From: Nitrososphaerota archaeon
GTDB lineage: Archaea; Thermoproteota; Nitrososphaeria_A; Caldarchaeales; Wolframiiraptoraceae
Assembly (NCBI GenBank): GCA_021157985.1
Contig: JAGGVM010000114.1
Location: forward strand, 1 to 13,630
Reading direction: 5' to 3'
DNA: 13,630 nucleotides
Each line of letters starts with the position of its first letter. The stretch's first letter is position 1. Below the pieces are notes generated by a model, which was not told the DNA's origin, ran no database searches, and worked only from the letters and a program-made list of their open reading frames with translations. This document shows positions 4,204 through 13,416 of this stretch, piece by piece. Made by a program: the position numbers and the translations under genes.

Positions 4204-4493
4204 CTCCGCTCCTCATCTTCCCGCAACGCGGATCCCAAAGCCTTCAGAGCCTTATCCAAGAGAACGGTTTCGCCGGCTCCTTGCAGCAGGGCGTCGGCAT
4301 CCGAGAGGCTTACACCGCTCAGCGCGTTGAGCACCGCGAGAAATCCGGAGATCAAAAGCGTCTTCAACATCTTCGATGAGTCGAAGGACTCGCCTTTCAG
4401 CATGCTCCTCGACATCGCCGTCAACGCGTAGAGGACGCCTCCGACGAACACCATTAGAAGAGACTTAGGATCAGGCTGCAAGAAAGGCTTCAC
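4185..4493 (-). CDS. Small two-TM membrane protein, holin-like candidate
   Basis: With a GTG start at 4493 (gtgA overlapping the portal stop tga, 4490-4492) this is 102 aa. A longer frame from 4568 exists, but that extension would lie inside the portal gene. Two hydrophobic stretches are visible: LLMVFVGGVLYALTAMS (about 13-29) and MLKTLLISGFLAVLNALSGV (about 43-62). A charged C-terminus (REDEERRW) follows. Size, two TM segments and location among virion genes resemble holins or other small viral membrane proteins, but there is no recognisable family signature. Its end overlaps the ABC-GNAT start by 19 nt, so the three genes look translationally coupled. Confidence 0.65.
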   Translation of the reverse strand: MKPFLQPDPKSLLMVFVGGVLYALTAMSRSMLKGESFDSSKMLKTLLISGFLAVLNALSGVSLSDADALLQGAGETVLLDKALKALGSALREDEERRWLGSG

Positions 4494-5929
4494 CTCGCTA
4501 AAGCGGCTTTCATCAGCTCCAAGTTCTCCTCGACCCACGTCCTCGCTTTCTCGGCGTTCCAAGGCCACTTCTCCTTATCGAACGTCGCCGCCAGGATCGC
4601 AGGCTCTCCGGATCCCTCAAGCATCGTGAGGCTTATTCCCCGCTTCCGATCGACCACCACCTCTCTAAGCGATGAGAAATCTCCGGGAATGTTTCCGCGA
4701 AGCTGGATGACGATCGACCTCGCCGACTCGGCTACGCGGATCGAAGCCTCCTCATCGGTTATCGGGAATCCGAGGTTCTTCAGGATCTTTCTCACCTCTT
4801 CGCGGGTTAGGGCGGGCTCGATGTGCGGAGGAGTGGAGTAGAACTTTTGGACGTCTCCGAGCGTGATCTTCGGCTTCTCCGGCATCCCCCAGTTAAAGCG
4901 CACCCCGGCTTCTCCCGGGTCTATTCCATGGCTTCGGAGAAGGGGGTCGTAGATCTGGTTCTCGACTATTCTCTTGACGGATCGCTGGATCGCCGACACT
5001 ATGTTTCCCTGAAGCCTGTTCGCTTCCCTCGCGCTGGCCTCGGTGAAACCCGGCTTGGTGAACAATCGGAGAACGCTGTTCATCAACCCTATCGTCACCT
5101 TGTTGTCCAGGTACTCGATGTAAGCGTCGAACCTCGCCCTGGGATCCATCTTCACGTCGATCACCCTGACCTCCTGGTTCGTCACGATGTCCTCTCCTGG
5201 AAGCATCTGCTTGATCTTCTCAGCGTATTCTCTCTGCGCTTCTCCCCCGATCTTCGGGAACTGGTAGATATGCCTCGGAGGATACTTCATCAGGACCTTC
5301 CACATCGCCCACTCCATGCTCCACTTTATGTCGTAGTAGCTTGGAACCGTGTAAGCCGAGTTTCTATCCGGATCGTAAACCACTCTTTCTTCGAGGAGGG
5401 GGCGGTTGATCGGCGATCCGAGCACCTCGTCTCCGTGTTTGATGAAGTAGAAGTGGACCACGTCGTTGAAGTCGAGCTTCACGGTTTCGCCGGTTATCGA
5501 CCTGACCTCTATCGCCTTTATCTCGAGATCGCTTCGATGGATCGCGGTGATCGACGGCAGCGGGATATGTCTAAGCCCCGTGAGCCTCCCGGATTCATGG
5601 ATCTTTAGCCAGAAGCTGTTCCCGGCCCAAAGCATCTCCGAGATCGCCTTGAACAATATCTGATCCATTCCAACCCTCCGATTGAACTCGTTGACCAATT
5701 CGACCGCTTCACGCCTACCCGAGACGTGGAACCCTGGGCCGACGACGAAAGCCGTCAAAGCCATCACCGCGACGTAGGTATCCGGATCCTTCAGAAAGCA
5801 CTCCAACCTCCTCTTGAAGAGGTTCGCGGGGGTCGAGATCGAAGAAACCTGGCCGGCGCCCGATCCCTCGAAGAAGCCCGATGCCTCTCTGAGACCGAGC
5901 TTCTCCAGGAGCTTCTCAAGCAACTTCAT
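4490..5929 (-). CDS. Phage portal protein (HK97/SPP1-like)
   Basis: Portal of the viral head: a ring-forming protein at one vertex through which DNA is pumped by the terminase and to which the tail joins. At 479 aa it fits the family. Matching features include an early conserved region (DPDTYVAVMALTAFVVGPGF), the wing/stem-like WAGNSFWLKI with GLRHIPLPSITAI (about 100-130), and FNDVVHFYFIKHGDEVLGSP (about 155-173), the portal 'vihf + G SPl' region. Later segments include YLDNKVTIGLMNSVLRLFTKPGFTEASAREANR, typical of the crown/stem helices. The assignment comes from pattern recognition, not a search. The gene leads the minus-strand operon and is divergent from the protease/MCP gene. A promoter-like element ends 25 nt before its ATG, so its mRNA is probably nearly leaderless. 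Portal transcribed away from the capsid and terminase genes is unusual for tailed viruses. Confidence 0.88.
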   Translation of the reverse strand: MKLLEKLLEKLGLREASGFFEGSGAGQVSSISTPANLFKRRLECFLKDPDTYVAVMALTAFVVGPGFHVSGRREAVELVNEFNRRVGMDQILFKAISEMLWAGNSFWLKIHESGRLTGLRHIPLPSITAIHRSDLEIKAIEVRSITGETVKLDFNDVVHFYFIKHGDEVLGSPINRPLLEERVVYDPDRNSAYTVPSYYDIKWSMEWAMWKVLMKYPPRHIYQFPKIGGEAQREYAEKIKQMLPGEDIVTNQEVRVIDVKMDPRARFDAYIEYLDNKVTIGLMNSVLRLFTKPGFTEASAREANRLQGNIVSAIQRSVKRIVENQIYDPLLRSHGIDPGEAGVRFNWGMPEKPKITLGDVQKFYSTPPHIEPALTREEVRKILKNLGFPITDEEASIRVAESARSIVIQLRGNIPGDFSSLREVVVDRKRGISLTMLEGSGEPAILAATFDKEKWPWNAEKARTWVEENLELMKAALAR

Positions 5930-5953
5930 CGAGGCCGCGGAGGCCGCGTGAGC

Positions 5954-5964
5954 ATTTTACGTAT
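5954..5964 (-). promoter_or_regulatory. Virus promoter motif copy 1 (portal)
   Basis: Minus-strand reading ATACGTAAAAT, ending 25 nt before the portal ATG. It is the left arm of a 31-bp imperfect palindrome (5954-5984), with 12 of 15 base pairs matched around the centre. It shares the word AT(G/A)CG(A/T)AA(A/T)AT with six other sites. Confidence 0.6.
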
Positions 5965-5973
5965 CTCCCGGGG

Positions 5974-5984
5974 ATGCGTAATAT
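5974..5984 (+). promoter_or_regulatory. Virus promoter motif copy 2 (protease/MCP)
   Basis: ATGCGTAATAT ends 27 nt before the ATG at 6011. It is the right arm of the same 31-bp palindrome, with a 9-bp spacer ctcccgggg between the arms. An AAAGGTTGATC ribosome-site-like stretch also precedes the ATG. Confidence 0.6.
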
Positions 5985-6010
5985 CCTCGGATCGGTTCAA
6001 AGGTTGATCG

Positions 6011-7990
6011 ATGAGCCTTCAGGTCCTAGGCTGGGCTGGAAACGCTCTCAGGATAAAGGGGGTGCTGGCGCCGGCGAGGGTCAGCAGGAACAACAGGCTA
6101 TACCTGCCCGAGGAACTGAGGAAGATGGCGGAGGAAGTTGATGGAAAGGAGATCCCGGTTTACTGGGAGCACGTCTCAGCCGGAAACGCGGTCGGAAAAG
6201 CTAAGGTGTTCTGGGACGACGTCAAGAAAGCCCTGAGATACGAGGCCGAGATATTCGACGAAGCCGCCGCCGAGAAGATCAGAAGCGGGCTCGTAAAGCA
6301 TGTGAGCCTTGGAGCCGACTACGAGCGAATAGACCTCGTCGACGACGTGATCGTCCCCAGAGACCTCCACCTCCGCGAGATATCCCTCGTCGCAGTCCCA
6401 GGGATACCTGAAGCGAACATCGAGATCGCCGAGTCCATTAAGCTCAGGGCCGTGGAGCGGGCGGTTCGAGCTCATGAGACCTTAAAGGCGCCGGTCACGA
6501 AGCCGTGGGACGCGGAGAAGGCCGTCGAGTCTCTCAGGAAGTGGGCCAGCGCGGATAGGTCGGGCGCCAAGGAGACCATAGACTGGGCTAAGTATAGGCT
6601 CGGGTTCGCGTGGTACGATGAGGATGATCCGGAGAGCTTCGGGAGCTACAAGCTTCCCCACCACGAAGTCGTTAACGGAAATCTCTACGTCGTCTGGAGA
6701 GGGGTCGCGGCCGCGATGGCAGCGCTCTTCGGGGCCAGGGGAGGAGTCAACATACCCGAGGAAAATAGAGAGGGGGTCTACAGGCATCTCGCCGCCCATT
6801 ACAGGCAATTCGATAAACAGCCTCCAAGCTATGAAAAGCTCAGCGAGCTATCCAGGCTCGAGGAGCCTTTGAGGAGCTTCAAGCTCCTTGAATACGTCGG
6901 GCTCATCGACGAGGCATACGCGGATCTGAAGAAGATCGTCGAGGAGATCGCGGAGGAAAAGCATGCGAAATATTCTCGACCCCGAGTTGATGAACCCGTG
7001 GAAGCCATGGCCCATGAGAATAAGGATGAGAAAGTCGTGGTTGAGAAGCTCGACCAAGAGCCGAGATCGTTCAGCGAGCTCTGTAGACAGGTCGGGAGGA
7101 GGATCGCGGAGAGCGTGAAGCTCAAGGCGAGGGAAGCCGTAACCGGAGCCTCCGATCAACCCGTAACCCACTCCATGCCCCTGTTCAGGGTTCCAGCCGG
7201 AGCTCCGATCGGGCTTAGATCCTTCGGCGAAGTCGTGGCCCTCGAGCGGGGAGCGAAGACGGCGACCCTCCCGATAATAAACTCGATAACCTTCAGCGAG
7301 CTGACGCCGGGATCCGAGCCCACCGAGGCAACTCAGACGATAACCTTCGCGGAGGTAACCCCGGTTGAATACGGCGCGATCCAGAGCTTCACCTACGTCG
7401 ACGCGGAGAGGATGACCGAAGACCTCGGAGCGGTCGTTGCGAGATGCTTCGCCGAAGCAGCCCAGCTCAGCAGCGACGACGTAATCCTCCAGGAGCTGGA
7501 TTCATCGGCTGGAGCCGCGGTCACGCCGGGTGGAAAAGCCGAGGGCGAGCTGACCTCCTCCGATACCTTCACCAGCGACCTCATCCTATCCGCCTTGACC
7601 CAGCTCAGGAACAACAACGTCGGCTTCGCGCCCGGAGACCTCGTCCTAGTCCTCCACCCCAAGCAATACGAGGACTTATTGAAGGAGGATTACGTGAAGA
7701 CGGCGATGCAGTTCGGGACCTTCGATCCCCAGACCGGCGTCATCGCGAGGCTGTTTGGAGTCGATATCTTCGTCAGCCCGAGGGTTAAGACGGGAACCGG
7801 ATCCGATGCGACGACCTATCACGCGGTTCTCTTCAAGAAGCGGGACGCCTTCGTGATGGCGATCAGCAGGGATCTCCTGATCGAGACCTTCAGGGACGTT
7901 AAGGCGAGGAAGGTTTACGTCGCCGGAAGCCACTGCATCGCCGCGAAGGTGAAATGGGATAAGGCGGTCGTCAAGATCATTACGGCTTAG
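6011..7990 (+). CDS. Prohead protease-scaffold-major capsid protein fusion (HK97 fold)
   Basis: One 659-aa reading frame holds three parts usually made separately. (1) Residues about 10-145: HK97-type prohead protease (U35-like). His54 in YWEH, Ser99 in KHVSLGAD and the family block LREISLVAVPGIPEANI (121-137) fit the His/Ser catalytic pattern. (2) About 160-270: the phage protease-associated domain, with PWDAEKAVESLRKWAS, the YRLGFAWYD..FGSYKLPHHEV stretch and ARGGVNIPEENREGVYRHLAAHY. About 270-380 is charged and helical, likely scaffold/delta domain. (3) About 385-659: HK97-fold capsid protein, with PLFRVPAGAPIGLRSFGEV, a Thr/Glu-rich N-arm, the long helix AERMTEDLGAVVARCFAEAA and late blocks PGDLVLVLHPKQY and GVDIFVSPRV. 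The protease would cut itself and the scaffold away during head maturation. An internal promoter-like site suggests that free MCP is also made (see 7007-7990). Confidence 0.88.
   Translation: MSLQVLGWAGNALRIKGVLAPARVSRNNRLYLPEELRKMAEEVDGKEIPVYWEHVSAGNAVGKAKVFWDDVKKALRYEAEIFDEAAAEKIRSGLVKHVSLGADYERIDLVDDVIVPRDLHLREISLVAVPGIPEANIEIAESIKLRAVERAVRAHETLKAPVTKPWDAEKAVESLRKWASADRSGAKETIDWAKYRLGFAWYDEDDPESFGSYKLPHHEVVNGNLYVVWRGVAAAMAALFGARGGVNIPEENREGVYRHLAAHYRQFDKQPPSYEKLSELSRLEEPLRSFKLLEYVGLIDEAYADLKKIVEEIAEEKHAKYSRPRVDEPVEAMAHENKDEKVVVEKLDQEPRSFSELCRQVGRRIAESVKLKAREAVTGASDQPVTHSMPLFRVPAGAPIGLRSFGEVVALERGAKTATLPIINSITFSELTPGSEPTEATQTITFAEVTPVEYGAIQSFTYVDAERMTEDLGAVVARCFAEAAQLSSDDVILQELDSSAGAAVTPGGKAEGELTSSDTFTSDLILSALTQLRNNNVGFAPGDLVLVLHPKQYEDLLKEDYVKTAMQFGTFDPQTGVIARLFGVDIFVSPRVKTGTGSDATTYHAVLFKKRDAFVMAISRDLLIETFRDVKARKVYVAGSHCIAAKVKWDKAVVKIITA
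6963..6973 (+). promoter_or_regulatory. Virus promoter motif copy 3, internal to the protease/MCP gene
   Basis: ATGCGAAATAT ends 25 nt before an in-frame GTG (6998) and 34 nt before an in-frame ATG (7007). The spacing is identical to copy 4. It also encodes HAKYS, so chance is possible. Confidence 0.4.
7007..7990 (+). other. Possible separate major capsid protein product from an internal start
   Basis: In-frame ATG at 7007 (Met333 of the fusion), or GTG at 6998, would give about 327-330 aa. The product would carry a short delta-like helix plus the whole HK97-fold capsid domain, a normal MCP length. The GTGGNNGNNATG arrangement here matches that at 8516-8527. The ribosome site is weak, so initiation on a leaderless or short-leader mRNA would be needed. 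Inference from spacing, not a proven product. Confidence 0.4.
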
Positions 7991-8380: not shown

Positions 8381-8528
8381 CCTACTGACCCGGGAGATCA
8401 GGGAGCTCGAGCTTAAGCTGGTTTCAATCGAGGTGAAGCTGAGCTCGATCGAGTCGAGGTTAACGGACCTGCACGAGGAGATGCGAAAAATCCTCGAGCG
8501 GCCTGAGAAGAGGAGGTGGCTGATATGA
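8346..8528 (+). CDS. Small coiled-coil protein (60 aa)
   Basis: Start chosen at ATG 8346 because AAGGGAG lies a few bases upstream; in-frame ATG 8331 and TTG 8328 are possible longer starts. It overlaps the membrane-protein gene by 35 nt. Almost the whole chain is one amphipathic helix with a leucine/isoleucine heptad (LTREIRELELKLVSIEVKL, then SSIESRLTDLHEEM), a strong coiled-coil prediction by eye. Its stop tga (8526-8528) overlaps the next ATG (8525). It contains promoter motif copy 4. Function unknown. Confidence 0.65.
   Translation: MKKNGMEKFLANLLTREIRELELKLVSIEVKLSSIESRLTDLHEEMRKILERPEKRRWLI
8481..8491 (+). promoter_or_regulatory. Virus promoter motif copy 4 (connector/terminase)
   Basis: ATGCGAAAAAT ends 25 nt before GTG 8516 and 34 nt before ATG 8525, the same two distances as at copy 3. 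It is identical to copy 7. It lies inside the upstream coding frame (MRKI), so coding constraint cannot be excluded. Confidence 0.4.
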
Positions 8529-8842
8529 CGTATGCAAGCGTCTCGGATGTGAAGTGGTGGCTGAAGCATCCTCAAGACGACTCAACCCTCGATCAAGAAA
8601 TAGAGGAAGCCCTCGAATCGGTCGACGCCGAGATAAACGACGTCCTCTCCGAATACGTTGAGACCCCGGTCTCCGATGAAACCCTCGCGGAGATATTGTC
8701 GGATATAGAGGCTCAGTGGGCCGCGGGCTTGATCAGGCAGAGGAGGAGCCCGAGCTCGGAGGAGGACGTGTATGTCCAGGTCGCGAAGAACAGGCTTGAG
8801 AGGCTCGTCGAGAGGCGTTTCAAGTTCCTCGACCTCGCTTAA
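8525..8842 (+). CDS. Head-tail connector / DUF1320-like protein candidate
   Basis: 105 aa. Start at ATG 8525 is favoured by GGAGGTG (8512-8518) at good spacing and by atga coupling to the upstream stop; GTG 8516 is an in-frame alternative. The sequence begins TYASVSDVKWWLKHPQDDST, followed by LDQEIEEALESVDAEINDVL and IEAQWAAGLIRQRRSP. This is the layout of small helical head-completion or connector proteins (gp6/gp36-like): an N-terminal motif 'YASVsDV', then acidic helices and a C-terminal helix. Such proteins ring the portal and join it to the tail. The position between capsid and terminase genes fits. Assigned from resemblance and context, not a search. Confidence 0.6.
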   Translation: MTYASVSDVKWWLKHPQDDSTLDQEIEEALESVDAEINDVLSEYVETPVSDETLAEILSDIEAQWAAGLIRQRRSPSSEEDVYVQVAKNRLERLVERRFKFLDLA

Positions 8843-10082
8843 CCGGGTTTTAAGGGAGATCGCGGCGGACCCCGTCCTCTTCTCGCGGCTCATCCTACGA
8901 TTCGATCCATACCCGTATCAGGAGAAGTTCCTGAGGGATCTGAGTAAGAGGATTATAGTGTGCGCGGGGAGGCAGGTTGGGAAATCCACGGTCGCGGCCG
9001 CCAAGGCGGTTTACTTCGCTGCGACGAGAAGCGATTCGACCACGCTGATAATCTCCGCTACAATGAGGCAGAGCATGCTCATCTTCGAGAAGGTCTCCGG
9101 CTTCGTTGACCGAAGCATTCTCAGATACAGCGTCGCGAAGAAGACGCAGACGAGGCTTGTCTTCGAGAACGGTGGGAGGATAATCGCGCTTCCATGCGGG
9201 AGAGGGGATACCTTGAGGGGATACACCGCGGACCTTGTGATACTCGATGAAGCCGCTTTCATGCCCGAGCACGTGATAGCGAACGTCGTCCTCCCGATGA
9301 TAGCCGCGAAAAACGGATACTGCTGGATCCTCTCGACGCCCTGGGATCGAGGCCACATCTTCTATAGAATCTGGATCGATGAAAGCGGGGCCTGGACCAA
9401 GTATCACTGGCCATCGAGGCTTAATCCGCTGATAAGCCGCGATTTCCTCCGCGAGCAACTCGACCTAATAGGCGAGGAAAGGTTTTCGGTCGAATACGAG
9501 GCCAGGTTCCTCGACGAAGAGTCAAGCTTCTTCCCGATGAAGCTGCTGAGAAAAGTCGTCGAGGACTATGAGCCGAAGCTCGAGCCCGGCGCGATCTACG
9601 GATACGATCCGGGAGGAAGGGAGAGCCTCGCAGCCCTCGTCGGGGTGAAATACGACTCGAGGAGGGGGAAGTGGTATCTGACCTATTGGAGAGCGGAGAA
9701 GAATGCTAGTTACTCGGATTTCAATGCCCTGATCCGCAGCTTGCATGAGGCTGCTTCGATGGAGAGGATCGTCGTGGACGAGACGGGGCTCGGCGGGCCG
9801 ATAGTCGAGGAGCTCAGGGGGCTCGGGCTTCCCGCCGTGGGAGTGAAGCTCACGGAGAGGGTGAAGGAGGAGATGTTCGGGAGGTTGAAGCTGATGTTGG
9901 AGAAAGGGGAGCTCGCCTTGCCCAACGACCCCCAGCTCCTCAGCCACCTCAACTGCATCCAATACGAGCGGAATCGAGCGGGTGGATTCAGGTTCACTCG
10001 CCGAGCCGGAGCACACGACGACCTCGCCTACGCCCTCGCCCTGGCCTTCTACTATCAGCCGTCGAGGGGATTCCTCCTCTAA
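8772..10082 (+). CDS. terL: Terminase large subunit (ATPase and nuclease)
   Basis: DNA-packaging motor of the virus, 436 aa. Visible ATPase parts: adenine-binding Q in YPYQ (Gln50), Walker A GRQVGKS (66-72), Walker B LVILDE (155-160) and coupling motif STPWDRGH (188-195). Visible RNase H-fold nuclease parts: Asp279 in YGYDPGG, Asp336 in IVVDETGLGG and the pair D416/D417 in GAHDDLAYALAL. All expected catalytic residues are present, so it should be active. The ATG at 8772 is supported by GGAGGAGG a few bases upstream, although this start lies 71 nt inside the connector gene; TTG 8796 is an alternative. Conserved sequence begins near residue 27. A T-run follows the stop. It lies downstream of the capsid gene, unlike the usual terS-terL-portal-MCP order. 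Confidence 0.96.
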   Translation: MSRSRRTGLRGSSRGVSSSSTSLNRVLREIAADPVLFSRLILRFDPYPYQEKFLRDLSKRIIVCAGRQVGKSTVAAAKAVYFAATRSDSTTLIISATMRQSMLIFEKVSGFVDRSILRYSVAKKTQTRLVFENGGRIIALPCGRGDTLRGYTADLVILDEAAFMPEHVIANVVLPMIAAKNGYCWILSTPWDRGHIFYRIWIDESGAWTKYHWPSRLNPLISRDFLREQLDLIGEERFSVEYEARFLDEESSFFPMKLLRKVVEDYEPKLEPGAIYGYDPGGRESLAALVGVKYDSRRGKWYLTYWRAEKNASYSDFNALIRSLHEAASMERIVVDETGLGGPIVEELRGLGLPAVGVKLTERVKEEMFGRLKLMLEKGELALPNDPQLLSHLNCIQYERNRAGGFRFTRRAGAHDDLAYALALAFYYQPSRGFLL

Positions 10083-10310: not shown

Positions 10311-10374
10311 AAACCGAAAGTGGGACTTCTTGTTAAAGATTTGATCGAAATAAGGGTTGAAGCCGCTTCGATGC

Positions 10375-10731
10375 ATGGGTCAGAAGGAGTGCCGTGGCCT
10401 CTGCAAGCTTCTCCCCGACGTGATCCACAGGCCTTGGTGGAAGCCGAGGGTAGTCCGATACCTCTACTGCCCCGTCTGCAAGGTCTCCTTCCCCGACCTC
10501 AAGATATACTACAAGGTTGATTCGAAGGGTAGGAAGACGTGCATCTGCTGCGGCACGACCTTGAGAACCGTTCCGAGGAGATCGAAGTGGAAGAACTCAC
10601 CGATCTACAAGAGCTTGGAGGACCTGCCCAAACCCTCCTCCGGCCAAGAAAATGAAGAGCTTCTCCGCCGCATCCTCTTTTCCCAAGGCGACGAGAGCGA
10701 CCGAGAGAACGGTGACGAAAACGATGATTAA
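10375..10731 (+). CDS. Zinc-ribbon protein (118 aa)
   Basis: Start taken at ATG 10375; TTG 10357 is an in-frame alternative. The chain has Cys pairs C32-x2-C35 (YCPVC) and C56-x2-C59 (CICC, with an extra Cys58), separated by about 20 residues: a zinc ribbon. Two more Cys (C6, C10) lie at the N-terminus. Many Lys/Arg residues around the ribbon suggest DNA or RNA binding. The C-terminal 35 residues are acidic and probably disordered (GDESDRENGDENDD). A CGAAATA element at 10346-10352 resembles the virus promoter motif but ends only about 22 nt upstream. The 3' third overlaps a membrane-protein gene on the other strand by 135 nt. No family is recognised; a regulator or a packaging accessory is possible. 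Confidence 0.7.
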   Translation: MGQKECRGLCKLLPDVIHRPWWKPRVVRYLYCPVCKVSFPDLKIYYKVDSKGRKTCICCGTTLRTVPRRSKWKNSPIYKSLEDLPKPSSGQENEELLRRILFSQGDESDRENGDENDD

Positions 10732-11540: not shown

Positions 11541-11566
11541 CGATTGGATGAACGCGTGCTCTGCGC

Positions 11567-11577
11567 ATTTTTCGTAT
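11567..11577 (-). promoter_or_regulatory. Virus promoter motif copy 5 (minus-strand small operon)
   Basis: Minus-strand ATACGAAAAAT ends 27 nt before ATG 11540. It overlaps copy 6 by two bases, forming a 20-bp imperfect palindrome (8 of 10 pairs). Confidence 0.6.
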
Positions 11578-11586
11578 GCGTAAAAT
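11576..11586 (+). promoter_or_regulatory. Virus promoter motif copy 6 (tail operon)
   Basis: ATGCGTAAAAT ends 25 nt before ATG 11611. With copy 5 it makes a compact back-to-back promoter, equal to that at 5954-5984 with 11 bp removed from the middle. Confidence 0.6.
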
Positions 11587-11610
11587 TCGCTGAAACAGCT
11601 TTTCGGAGAT

Positions 11611-12033: not shown

Positions 12034-12446
12034 TGACCCGGGGAACGAGGAGAATCTTGGAGGCCTTAGAGAAGATCCGGGACGGGTTCGCTGAGATCCC
12101 GAGGGAGCTCGCCCACTTGATCCTTCAAAGAGCTGTCGAGACGGCTCCTAAGAGGACCGGAAGGCTTCGGAAGAGCATTAGGATGAGGAGGATACGCGGG
12201 GGATATGAGGTCTCGATGGGCGGAGGCGAGGCGCCTTACGCGGGGTTCCTGGAGTACGGGACCCGGGGCCACGTGATCAGGGCCAGGAGGGCGAGGGCTC
12301 TGCGGTTCGAGATACGCGGCGAAGTCGTTTACGCGAAATACGTTCATCACCCGGGGCTGAAGCCGAGGAGGATCATGGCCGAAGCTGTTAGAGAGGCCTC
12401 GAGAGATCTCCGGGAAATCGCTTCGAGAATTCTCTGCGGAGGATGA
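12033..12446 (+). CDS. HK97 gp10-like head-tail joining protein
   Basis: 137 aa. Start at ATG 12033, overlapping the upstream stop as tgatg; a TTG one codon earlier is possible. The family pattern is clear: APKRTGRLRKSIRMRR (about 38-53), then YEVSMGGGEAPYAGFLEYGT (about 58-77) and RAFRAL-like RARRARALRFEIRG. HK97 gp10-like proteins have the order 'aP.dTG.Lr.Si ... y.g.veyGT' and take part in joining head and tail. A C-terminal helix (RIMAEAVREASRDLREIASRIL) is usual. The gene ends in tgatg overlapping a 13-codon mini-frame that leads to the tail tube start. Confidence 0.85.
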   Translation: MTRGTRRILEALEKIRDGFAEIPRELAHLILQRAVETAPKRTGRLRKSIRMRRIRGGYEVSMGGGEAPYAGFLEYGTRGHVIRARRARALRFEIRGEVVYAKYVHHPGLKPRRIMAEAVREASRDLREIASRILCGG

Positions 12447-12456
12447 TGCGAAAAAT
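12446..12456 (+). promoter_or_regulatory. Virus promoter motif copy 7 (tail tube)
   Basis: ATGCGAAAAAT, identical to copy 4, lies in the short gap between two tail genes and ends 28 nt before ATG 12484. It could boost tail tube mRNA, a protein needed in many copies. Confidence 0.5.
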
Positions 12457-12483
12457 ACTCAGACGATTCTCATGGTTGCCGAG

Positions 12484-13416
12484 ATGACCCGGTACCTTGG
12501 TTTAGGTAAGGAGGATGCTTTCGGTCAGCCGGCTTCGCCCACGAGGTTCATCGACCCGCTTAGGATAGATGTGGCATCGGAGAAGGAGCCGATCTTGAGG
12601 AGATCCGTTGCGTCGAGGGCTCCGGTCGATGAAGCGGCTGGAAGCGTCGTCGTATCCGGTGAAGTAGAGTTCCAAGTCGAGCCAACGGTTTTCGGAGACT
12701 TCCTCCTAATGCTCTTGGGAAAGGTTTCTTCGAGTCAGCCTGATCCATCGAACGCCCCGACGGTTTACCAGCATACTTTCACTCCCTGCGAAGTCGGCGA
12801 AACCCCGCCAACCTACACCCTCGAGCTAGCGTCGGATAGCACCGCGAGAAAAGTCGTTTCAGCGATAATCGAATCCATGAAGATCGAGCTGGCTCCGGGT
12901 GAATACGTCTCGGCGACGGCGAGCATAGTCGGGCAAAAAGAAGAGCAGTCCTCGCCTCAGTCCCCGAGCTTTCCGCAGACGAGGCCCTGGCACTCGGGAG
13001 AAGCGTCGATAAAGATAAACGGGGAAGAAGCCGAGCTCCAGGCGCTCAGCCTCGAGATAAACAACAACCCGTCGACGGATCACCACGTCATAGGCTCGAG
13101 GTATCTGCCGAGACACGAGCTGGGAGAACTCGAGATCAAGGGAAGCATGGACATAAGGTTCTCGGATCGAAAATATCTCGACGAATTCCTAGAAGAGGAG
13201 GAGGCATCGATAACCATAGAGCTCGCGGGAGACCCGATCGAAGGCGGATACGGATACGGGGCCAGGATAGAGTTCCCGAGGGTGGTTTACTCGGCTTGGA
13301 GCGGGGAGATCTCCGGATCAGATCCCATCGTTCAAAGCGTCGACTTCGTGGCTCTCAAGCCGTCGAGCGGAGACGCGGTCAAGTTCACCCTGACGAACAC
13401 GGTCTCAGAATACTGA
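12484..13416 (+). CDS. Tail tube protein
   Basis: 310 aa from ATG 12484 (MTRYLGLGKEDAFGQPASPT); ATG 12472 would add four residues but fits neither the promoter spacing nor the usual tail tube start. The N-terminus 'rYlglGkEdafG' is typical of phage tail tube proteins. The rest is beta-rich with polar loops: SVVVSGEVEFQVEPTVFGDF (about 50-69), TLELASDSTARKVVSAIIES, KIELAPGEYVSATASIVGQ and a second similar half (LQALSLEINNN, then LGELEIKGSMDIRF). Two tube-like halves in one chain suggest a trimer making a hexagonal tube, as in some siphoviruses. The tube carries DNA from the head to the host. High copy number would fit its own promoter. Confidence 0.75.
   Translation: MTRYLGLGKEDAFGQPASPTRFIDPLRIDVASEKEPILRRSVASRAPVDEAAGSVVVSGEVEFQVEPTVFGDFLLMLLGKVSSSQPDPSNAPTVYQHTFTPCEVGETPPTYTLELASDSTARKVVSAIIESMKIELAPGEYVSATASIVGQKEEQSSPQSPSFPQTRPWHSGEASIKINGEEAELQALSLEINNNPSTDHHVIGSRYLPRHELGELEIKGSMDIRFSDRKYLDEFLEEEEASITIELAGDPIEGGYGYGARIEFPRVVYSAWSGEISGSDPIVQSVDFVALKPSSGDAVKFTLTNTVSEY

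Follow-up and report, generated by a model that had tools for sequence, protein, structure and literature searches.

A putative internal promoter and nested capsid gene within a protease-capsid fusion gene of a Wolframiiraptoraceae head-tail gene cluster

A 659-aa gene that encodes a protease, a conserved middle domain and a major capsid protein in one frame likely comprises two nested genes, with an internal promoter that would release the capsid protein by itself. The candidate promoter is a copy of a motif that recurs among the surrounding head-tail genes at a nearly constant distance from their start codons, and the reading of an internal promoter with a nested capsid gene is well supported by sequence comparison.

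Results

The fusion gene and its gene cluster

The window, that is the whole stretch of 13,630 nucleotides that was analysed, is an entire contig of an archaeal assembly of 810,631 bases that is 76% complete. Pfam and PHROG matches together with the open frames reveal a cluster of portal, fusion, terminase, neck and tail tube genes. The portal protein gene is on the minus strand (4490..5929; Pfam Portal_Mu, E 1.5e-5), while the terminase large subunit (8772..10082; Pfam Terminase_6N, E 1e-17; PHROG, E 2e-46) and the tail tube protein (12484..13416; Pfam Phage_tube_2, E 6e-31 for 12472-13416) are encoded on the plus strand, the start of the latter having been revised from 12472 to 12484 because of the promoter spacing described below. 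Neighbouring genes include a DUF763 gene and an ABC/GNAT gene, both recognised with Pfam, and a further frame taken by eye for a membrane pyrophosphatase. A small protein whose paired CxxC motifs look zinc-ribbon-like to the eye is conserved between the window (10357-10731) and a related contig (L224, 12983-13333); the Pfam search of the window gave no match to it, and it could be a regulator reading the cluster's own promoter motif.

The fusion gene is an open frame of 659 aa on the plus strand (6011..7990, from ATG 6011), as originally predicted. Among PHROG families, its product matches that of the major head protein at 1e-18 and that of head maturation proteases at 1e-4, and it has full-length homologues at 76-82% identity. 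The protease-like domain (about residues 13-154; 6047..6472) scores 196.7 bits with a profile built from an alignment (A1) that itself includes the window protein, and the PHROG match to head maturation protease over it is weak. In that alignment, H54 is nearly invariant and S99 invariant, a candidate catalytic pair. No match of the window protein to the S78 prohead protease family (PF04586) was found at E 0.01, and that family is present in some proteins sharing part of the fusion, for example P0047. A conserved middle domain follows at about residues 160-275. This domain, with its YKLPHH motif (window 6488-6835), recurs in many other viral-contig proteins, fused or separate.

The C-terminal part (about residues 386-659; 7166..7987) is a predicted HK97-fold major capsid protein, based on a profile, on Pfam and on comparison of a model with solved capsids. 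Phage_capsid_4 matches residues 423-655 (E 1.5e-11), and two capsid families score above their curated cut-offs (PF25209, 45.5 bits against 27; PF19821, 30.6 against 25). The AlphaFold2 model of the fusion protein (mean pLDDT 74.8, pTM 0.40) matches HK97 (1ohg) with an E of 2e-12 and a TM of 0.65 by target length. In the model the middle domain is followed by a stretch of low pLDDT, a helix and the HK97-fold domain. Linker residues 317-360 have a pLDDT below 50, with predicted disorder, and contain the internal motif site. The original prediction spoke of a scaffold and of a short delta-like region; a delta-like role fits best the helix at 354-378, downstream of the internal start, and the term scaffold for the middle part is unproven.

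A promoter motif at a fixed distance from start codons

The motif ATGCGWAAWATNCTC (also written ATGCGNAANATNCTCR, with close variants) occurs in seven copies among the head-tail genes, on both strands, and all seven have an ATG or GTG 35-38 nt after the first motif base. Upstream of the portal gene lies a putative divergent promoter (5949..5964, minus strand, 1 mismatch; ATG 5929 at +35), which is kept in the related contigs L001, L224 and L225. An exact copy precedes the full-length fusion gene (5974..5989, plus strand; ATG 6011 at +37), with a like arrangement in the same three contigs at +35/+36. The third copy, inside the fusion gene, is treated separately below. Copy 4 is also exact (8481..8496, plus strand; GTG 8516 at +35, ATG 8525 at +44) and sits within the end of a preceding small frame; it is retained in contig L002, and no counterpart was found in L224 or L225. 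Downstream are a divergent copy (11562..11577, minus strand, 2 mismatches; minus-strand ATG at +37), with counterparts in L224 (ATG at +33) and L225 (+38), a plus-strand copy (11576..11591, 2 mismatches; ATG 11611 at +35), also with counterparts in both, and an exact plus-strand copy before the tail tube gene (12446..12461; ATG 12484 at +38), whose counterparts in L224 and L225 have a start at +37. The numbering of copies 1-4 in the original prediction would fit the sites at 5949 (minus), 5974, 6963 and 8481 (all plus), leaving those at 11562 (minus), 11576 and 12446 (both plus) as three more.

Chance was rejected as the source of the motif by match counts, by start spacing and by the matrix test given below. 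Allowing up to 3 mismatches, the window has 12 matches where 4.35 are expected, and 0 of 200 shuffles reach 12. The exact motif has four matches in the 810,631-base assembly, every one in the window contig. A start at +35 to +38 follows 7/7 head-tail sites and 0/21 sites elsewhere in the genome, the 21 being those examined out of 38 off-contig matches (Fisher p 8e-7). For the flanking genes of the window the count is 0/2, and 7.5% of all window positions have a start at this distance. Across the window, L001, L002, L224 and L225, a list of 24 sites, which omits the window's two matches in flanking genes as well as additional matches with 3 mismatches in L224 and L225, has the start at 35-38 in 23 and at 33 in one. 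The pattern AT-x-x-G-x-AA-x-AT-x-C is common to all 24, and in the relatives such sites precede the portal, fusion and tail tube genes and two further genes.

Archaeal TATA boxes place an A/T core about 27-30 nt upstream of a leaderless start. The A/T core of the motif, about 27-30 nt before the start, thus suits a leaderless archaeal promoter, and host frames have a raised A+T content at -39 to -28 (29 frames with rough starts); the motif core differs from the textbook TATA box. Taking the most A/T-rich 10-mer as a promoter finder was uninformative, as other A/T-rich stretches score equally high.

The internal site and the nested capsid start

Copy 3, ATGCGAAATATTCTCG, is an exact motif match at 6963..6978 on the plus strand, where the fusion gene reads CAT GCG AAA TAT TCT CGA from codon 318 onward. 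It is followed in frame by GTG 6998 at +35 and ATG 7007 at +44, the arrangement originally predicted. The putative nested capsid gene (6998..7990, plus strand) would begin with a leaderless GTG and encode 330 aa; from the alternative ATG 7007 the product has the 327 aa originally estimated. In a blind test, matrices were trained on the non-internal sites of other genomes, and the internal site was the best plus-strand site of the fusion gene in 4/4 genomes. It scored 24.6, 26.1, 18.7 and 14.3 bits, with runners-up at 2.1, 5.6, 7.5 and 6.8, so that its lead ranges from 7.5 to 22.5 bits. Whole-codon shuffles reached the score of the internal site in 0 of 300 cases in each genome, and synonymous shuffles in 0, 0, 4 and 3 of 300.

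We infer that GTG 6998 is used as the capsid start. In the homologue P0006, Met stands at +35 and position +44 is Lys, so that the main start appears better placed at +35/+38 than at ATG 7007; Met at +44 is retained in 10/12 sequences, and ATG 7007 is the less favoured alternative. The original prediction also noted that copies 3 and 4 share the arrangement GTGGNNGNNATG at the same distances. This likeness is present in the window, and it fails as a general rule: it was rejected as a shared element, being absent from copy 3 of L034 and L035 and disrupted at copy 4 of L002. By eye, the GTG of copy 4 belongs to GGAGGTG, which is Shine-Dalgarno-like for ATG 8525.

Conservation of the internal site

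The window protein was compared with 11 homologues, ten at 76-85% identity and one partial (P0012) at 71%; P0011 lacks its N terminus, and contigs L002, L034 and L035 are represented among the proteins too, by P0002, P0012 and P0010 or by near copies. The linker around the site is more variable, and the residues that spell the motif are kept in 12/12. Residue 0 is H, Y or N, followed by A (11) or T (1), K (12), Y (10) or N (2), and S, T or A (12). Residues 0-4 match what the fixed and degenerate positions of the motif permit, and residue 5, for which the motif requires a codon starting with C, fits in 8/12. The single Thr, in P0006, would be encoded by ACG, giving the ATACG variant seen in 4 of the 24 promoter copies. 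Residue +12 is V (8), M (2) or E (2), both sequences with E having M at residue +13, and residue +15 is M in 10 and otherwise K or V. One check originally proposed was whether related fusions keep the motif and the Met. Close relatives that had lost the motif, which would have counted against the prediction, were sought and not found: the residues that spell it are kept in 11/11 homologues, and the DNA motif in four further contigs. The Met at +44 itself is kept in 10/12, and a start-type residue at +35/+38 in 12/12 (V/M at nt +35 in ten, M at +38 in two).

At the DNA level, the internal site has 1, 1, 2 and 3 mismatches in the four further contigs, the weaker sites (2 and 3 mismatches) being those of genomes G010 and G013. 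Since L001 and L002 share an almost identical linker, the independent DNA witnesses number four, not five. Indels in alignment A1 lie outside the stretch from motif to start; a five-gene alignment has a two-codon gap there for L034 and L035. Over the site, the synonymous rate between G010 and G013 is only moderately reduced, windows that start at the site codons ranking 13-79 of 636, and the support from this test is modest. Across four sequences, 11 of 15 columns of the motif window are identical, and 583 of 1968 windows of the whole gene are as good, so that the motif window is exceptional only within the variable part of the linker. Conservation of the motif residues for protein reasons was considered and is disfavoured, because the kept residues track the fixed and degenerate positions of the promoter.

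Separate and fused forms in relatives

A 67-row tree built on the protease and middle domains contains a clade (support 100/99) of 25 rows, of which 20 are fusions and five are separate proteases; the label "fused" requires four changes. The pattern K[NY] with a Met 9-13 codons later, which was picked after the alignment had been inspected, is present in 18/20 fusions of the clade versus 0/15 other fusions, the failures being P0013 and P0008. For nine far members of the clade (P0013-P0020 and P0026) the evidence comes from protein: none of their DNA was recognised among the matches listed, in viral contigs and genomes, and a box there is therefore inferred from the protein. A single-protein scan of viral contigs found no relative.

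Among the separate-gene relatives whose junction could be read, 4/5 have an A/T box, chosen by eye, 30 nt before the capsid start. L053, L054 and G036 are the separate forms of the clade with DNA, G036 standing on a long branch. In these three the box lies in or just past the end of the protease gene, exactly 30 nt from the capsid start, which equals the distance in the window. Of two separate pairs outside the tree, G033 has AAATAA 30 nt before the capsid ATG and G534 has no box at that distance. No capsid gene was found in the stretch of G495 examined. A capsid promoter at the junction thus probably predates at least some fusions and was kept inside the frame; the reverse history, in which a fusion was split by a new stop, is less favoured. 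In another genome (G527; L236 1-700), a protease-capsid frame is without the middle domain, and one of its internal ATG codons is preceded by GGGGGTGAGGGAA.

Nine other fusion loci with DNA were scored (L069, L137, L138, L139, L055, L057, L060, L063 and Pro-Nvie1), the frames of L055, L057, L060 and L063 having the middle domain and capsid without a protease match. The best linker score with the motif matrix is at most 4.1 bits, and a box of the listed type 27-34 nt before an in-frame start occurs in 0/9 of them versus 4/4 here. In all except Pro-Nvie1 (8/9), an internal ATG or TTG of the linker has a Shine-Dalgarno energy in the best 0.6-3.4% of the gene's codons, these ranks being the best of 3-6 candidate starts each and L138 and L139 being near copies. 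The linker of the Nitrososphaera element Pro-Nvie1 has neither a box nor a Shine-Dalgarno start. The internal starts of L001 and L002 are intermediate, with a fairly good energy (3-9% of codons), and translation from the long message may therefore add product there. Strong Shine-Dalgarno energies are also found at non-conserved positions (a TTG in L002, a TTG in L137 and GTG 7115 of the window, preceded by a strong Shine-Dalgarno stretch, with GTC or GTT as the codon in relatives), and the measure alone therefore proves little.

The genomic locus

The head-tail cluster occupies one locus between host genes in G000, G010 and G013, thus in two genera. G010 and G013, of another genus, have the same gene order there from pyrophosphatase to tail tube. 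In G010 the cluster extends from 7082 to about 24,488 (L224 7082-20000 with L232 1-4488) and is followed by seemingly cellular genes; no integrase or replication gene was recognised by eye among its frames of at least 90 aa. Between G010 and G013, six cluster genes have a dS of 0.77-1.45 and a dN/dS of 0.04-0.10, similar to the dS of 0.74-1.10 and the dN/dS of 0.03-0.09 of four flanking genes. In G013 the portal frame (L225 6467-7953) is split into two pieces that overlap, owing to a frame break or a sequencing error.

A terminase search of 22 genomes of the family gave close matches (51-100% identity) in 5, weaker matches in 9 and none in 8, and the cluster is patchy within the genus. Genomes G002 and G003, of the same genus and without the cluster, have an RHH gene and a short ABC/GNAT piece beside DUF763 (L289 4447-4969; L290 10770-11588), which suggests decay of the region. 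The ABC/GNAT match of G007 is cut off by the end of its contig. G008 has more distant relatives of the cluster genes on other contigs, away from its DUF763. With its shared locus in two genera, the cluster is perhaps a domesticated element like a gene transfer agent (GTA); its patchiness and the position in G008 speak against this. Contig L001 (QMXE01000143.1) is a 3.9-kb contig of a Bathyarchaeota MAG whose linker is nearly identical to that of L002, from a relative named Wolframiiraptor sp.; its protein is 82% identical to that of the window, and its place in that MAG would reflect misbinning or transfer.

Discussion

The arrangement suggests how one frame could supply its two products in different amounts. 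From the promoter at 5974, a message, probably leaderless, would encode the full fusion of protease, middle domain and capsid protein, while a second such promoter, at 6963 and likewise specific to the cluster, would give a message starting at or near GTG 6998. The short message would yield the capsid protein alone, of about 330 aa including a short helical segment at its N terminus. In the procapsid the fusion would be a minor component that carries the protease, and the free capsid protein would form the rest of the shell. Under this scenario the motif would be bound and transcribed, and would set the product ratio.

Free capsid protein could also arise by internal translation initiation on the long message, the motif being incidental. 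The eight fusion loci outside the promoter clade with a strong Shine-Dalgarno sequence before an internal start, and the moderate ones of L001 and L002, lend this route some weight. However, the window starts have poor Shine-Dalgarno energies (GTG at the 33rd and ATG at the 81st percentile), no Shine-Dalgarno sequence of the lambda Nu3 type precedes the internal start in the window, those of L034 and L035 rank at 13-24%, and a conserved motif at a fixed distance is left unexplained; we consider internal translation unlikely as the source of the capsid protein here. It is more improbable still that the fusion is the sole product, proteolysis freeing the capsid protein at a 1:1 ratio to the protease and the motif being a chance match or a relic promoter. 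Tailed viruses do commonly cleave their capsid protein, and Pro-Nvie1 is an example of a fusion in which no internal signal was detected, but a relic would decay, and here the motif residues and a start are kept in 12/12 sequences across a variable linker.

The motif might instead be bound by another kind of protein, as an operator or a packaging signal would be, and stand before starts by coincidence. It forms two back-to-back, near-palindromic divergent pairs (5949-5989 and 11562-11591; ATWTTWCGCAT / ATGCGWAAWAT), as operators can, and its exact form is specific to the cluster. Yet on both strands it points towards a start at a fixed distance, and its A/T core lies at the archaeal TATA-box distance, in the region where host frames also have raised A+T, leaving very little probability for this explanation. 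A broader scenario, in which the clade frees its capsid protein by a promoter and other fusions by Shine-Dalgarno starts, fused and separate forms interchange at a fixed junction, the promoter dictates the linker sequence, and the Wolframiiraptoraceae cluster is a vertically inherited, GTA-like element, is offered tentatively and, taken as a whole, is slightly more doubtful than not.

Both the fusion of protease and capsid protein and an internal promoter in a protease gene, the latter in herpesviruses, are already known. Among thaumarchaeal proviruses, Nvie-Pro1 and NCAV2-Pro1 have, like the window, a protease fused to an HK97-like capsid protein, while CalSub-Pro encodes the two as separate genes (PMC6563490). 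These proviruses are without replication genes or att sites, and a GTA-like fate has been proposed for them (PMC6563490, PMC5797428); an integrase is also absent (PMC5797428). The linker of Nvie-Pro1 is without the box of the window, and the accessible part of PMC6563490 makes no mention of an internal promoter in Nvie-Pro1 or NCAV2-Pro1. Neither of two papers on archaeal tailed viruses uses "fused" or "fusion" in its main text; "internal promoter" is absent from the one (PMC8651126) and "promoter" from the other (PMC11705971). In searches of the open-licence literature, no report was found of an internal promoter releasing a capsid protein, or of any such promoter in archaea. The stoichiometry problem posed by protease-capsid fusions is unaddressed in the passages on them that were available, and this locus offers a testable answer.

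In lambda C/Nu3 and Mu I/Z, an abundant head-assembly product is made from the 3' part of the protease gene by an internal translation start. That product is a scaffold, whereas in the window the nested product would be the capsid protein and a good Shine-Dalgarno site is lacking. Related fusions appear to use translation instead of a promoter, which opens an evolutionary comparison. The seemingly promoter-set amino acids of the linker are a warning when protein conservation is read, and annotation of such fusions is predicted to miss the gene of the most abundant shell protein. The layout recalls herpesvirus UL26/UL26.5, where a promoter within the protease gene likewise drives separate in-frame expression of its 3' part, the UL26.5-type short product being the more abundant one in B-capsids (according to the part of PMC2949831 consulted). 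The window would share with UL26/UL26.5 an intragenic promoter that precedes an in-frame 3' gene, and would differ from it in its archaeal promoter, its putative leaderless start and its nested product, a capsid protein rather than a scaffold, for which no homology is claimed.
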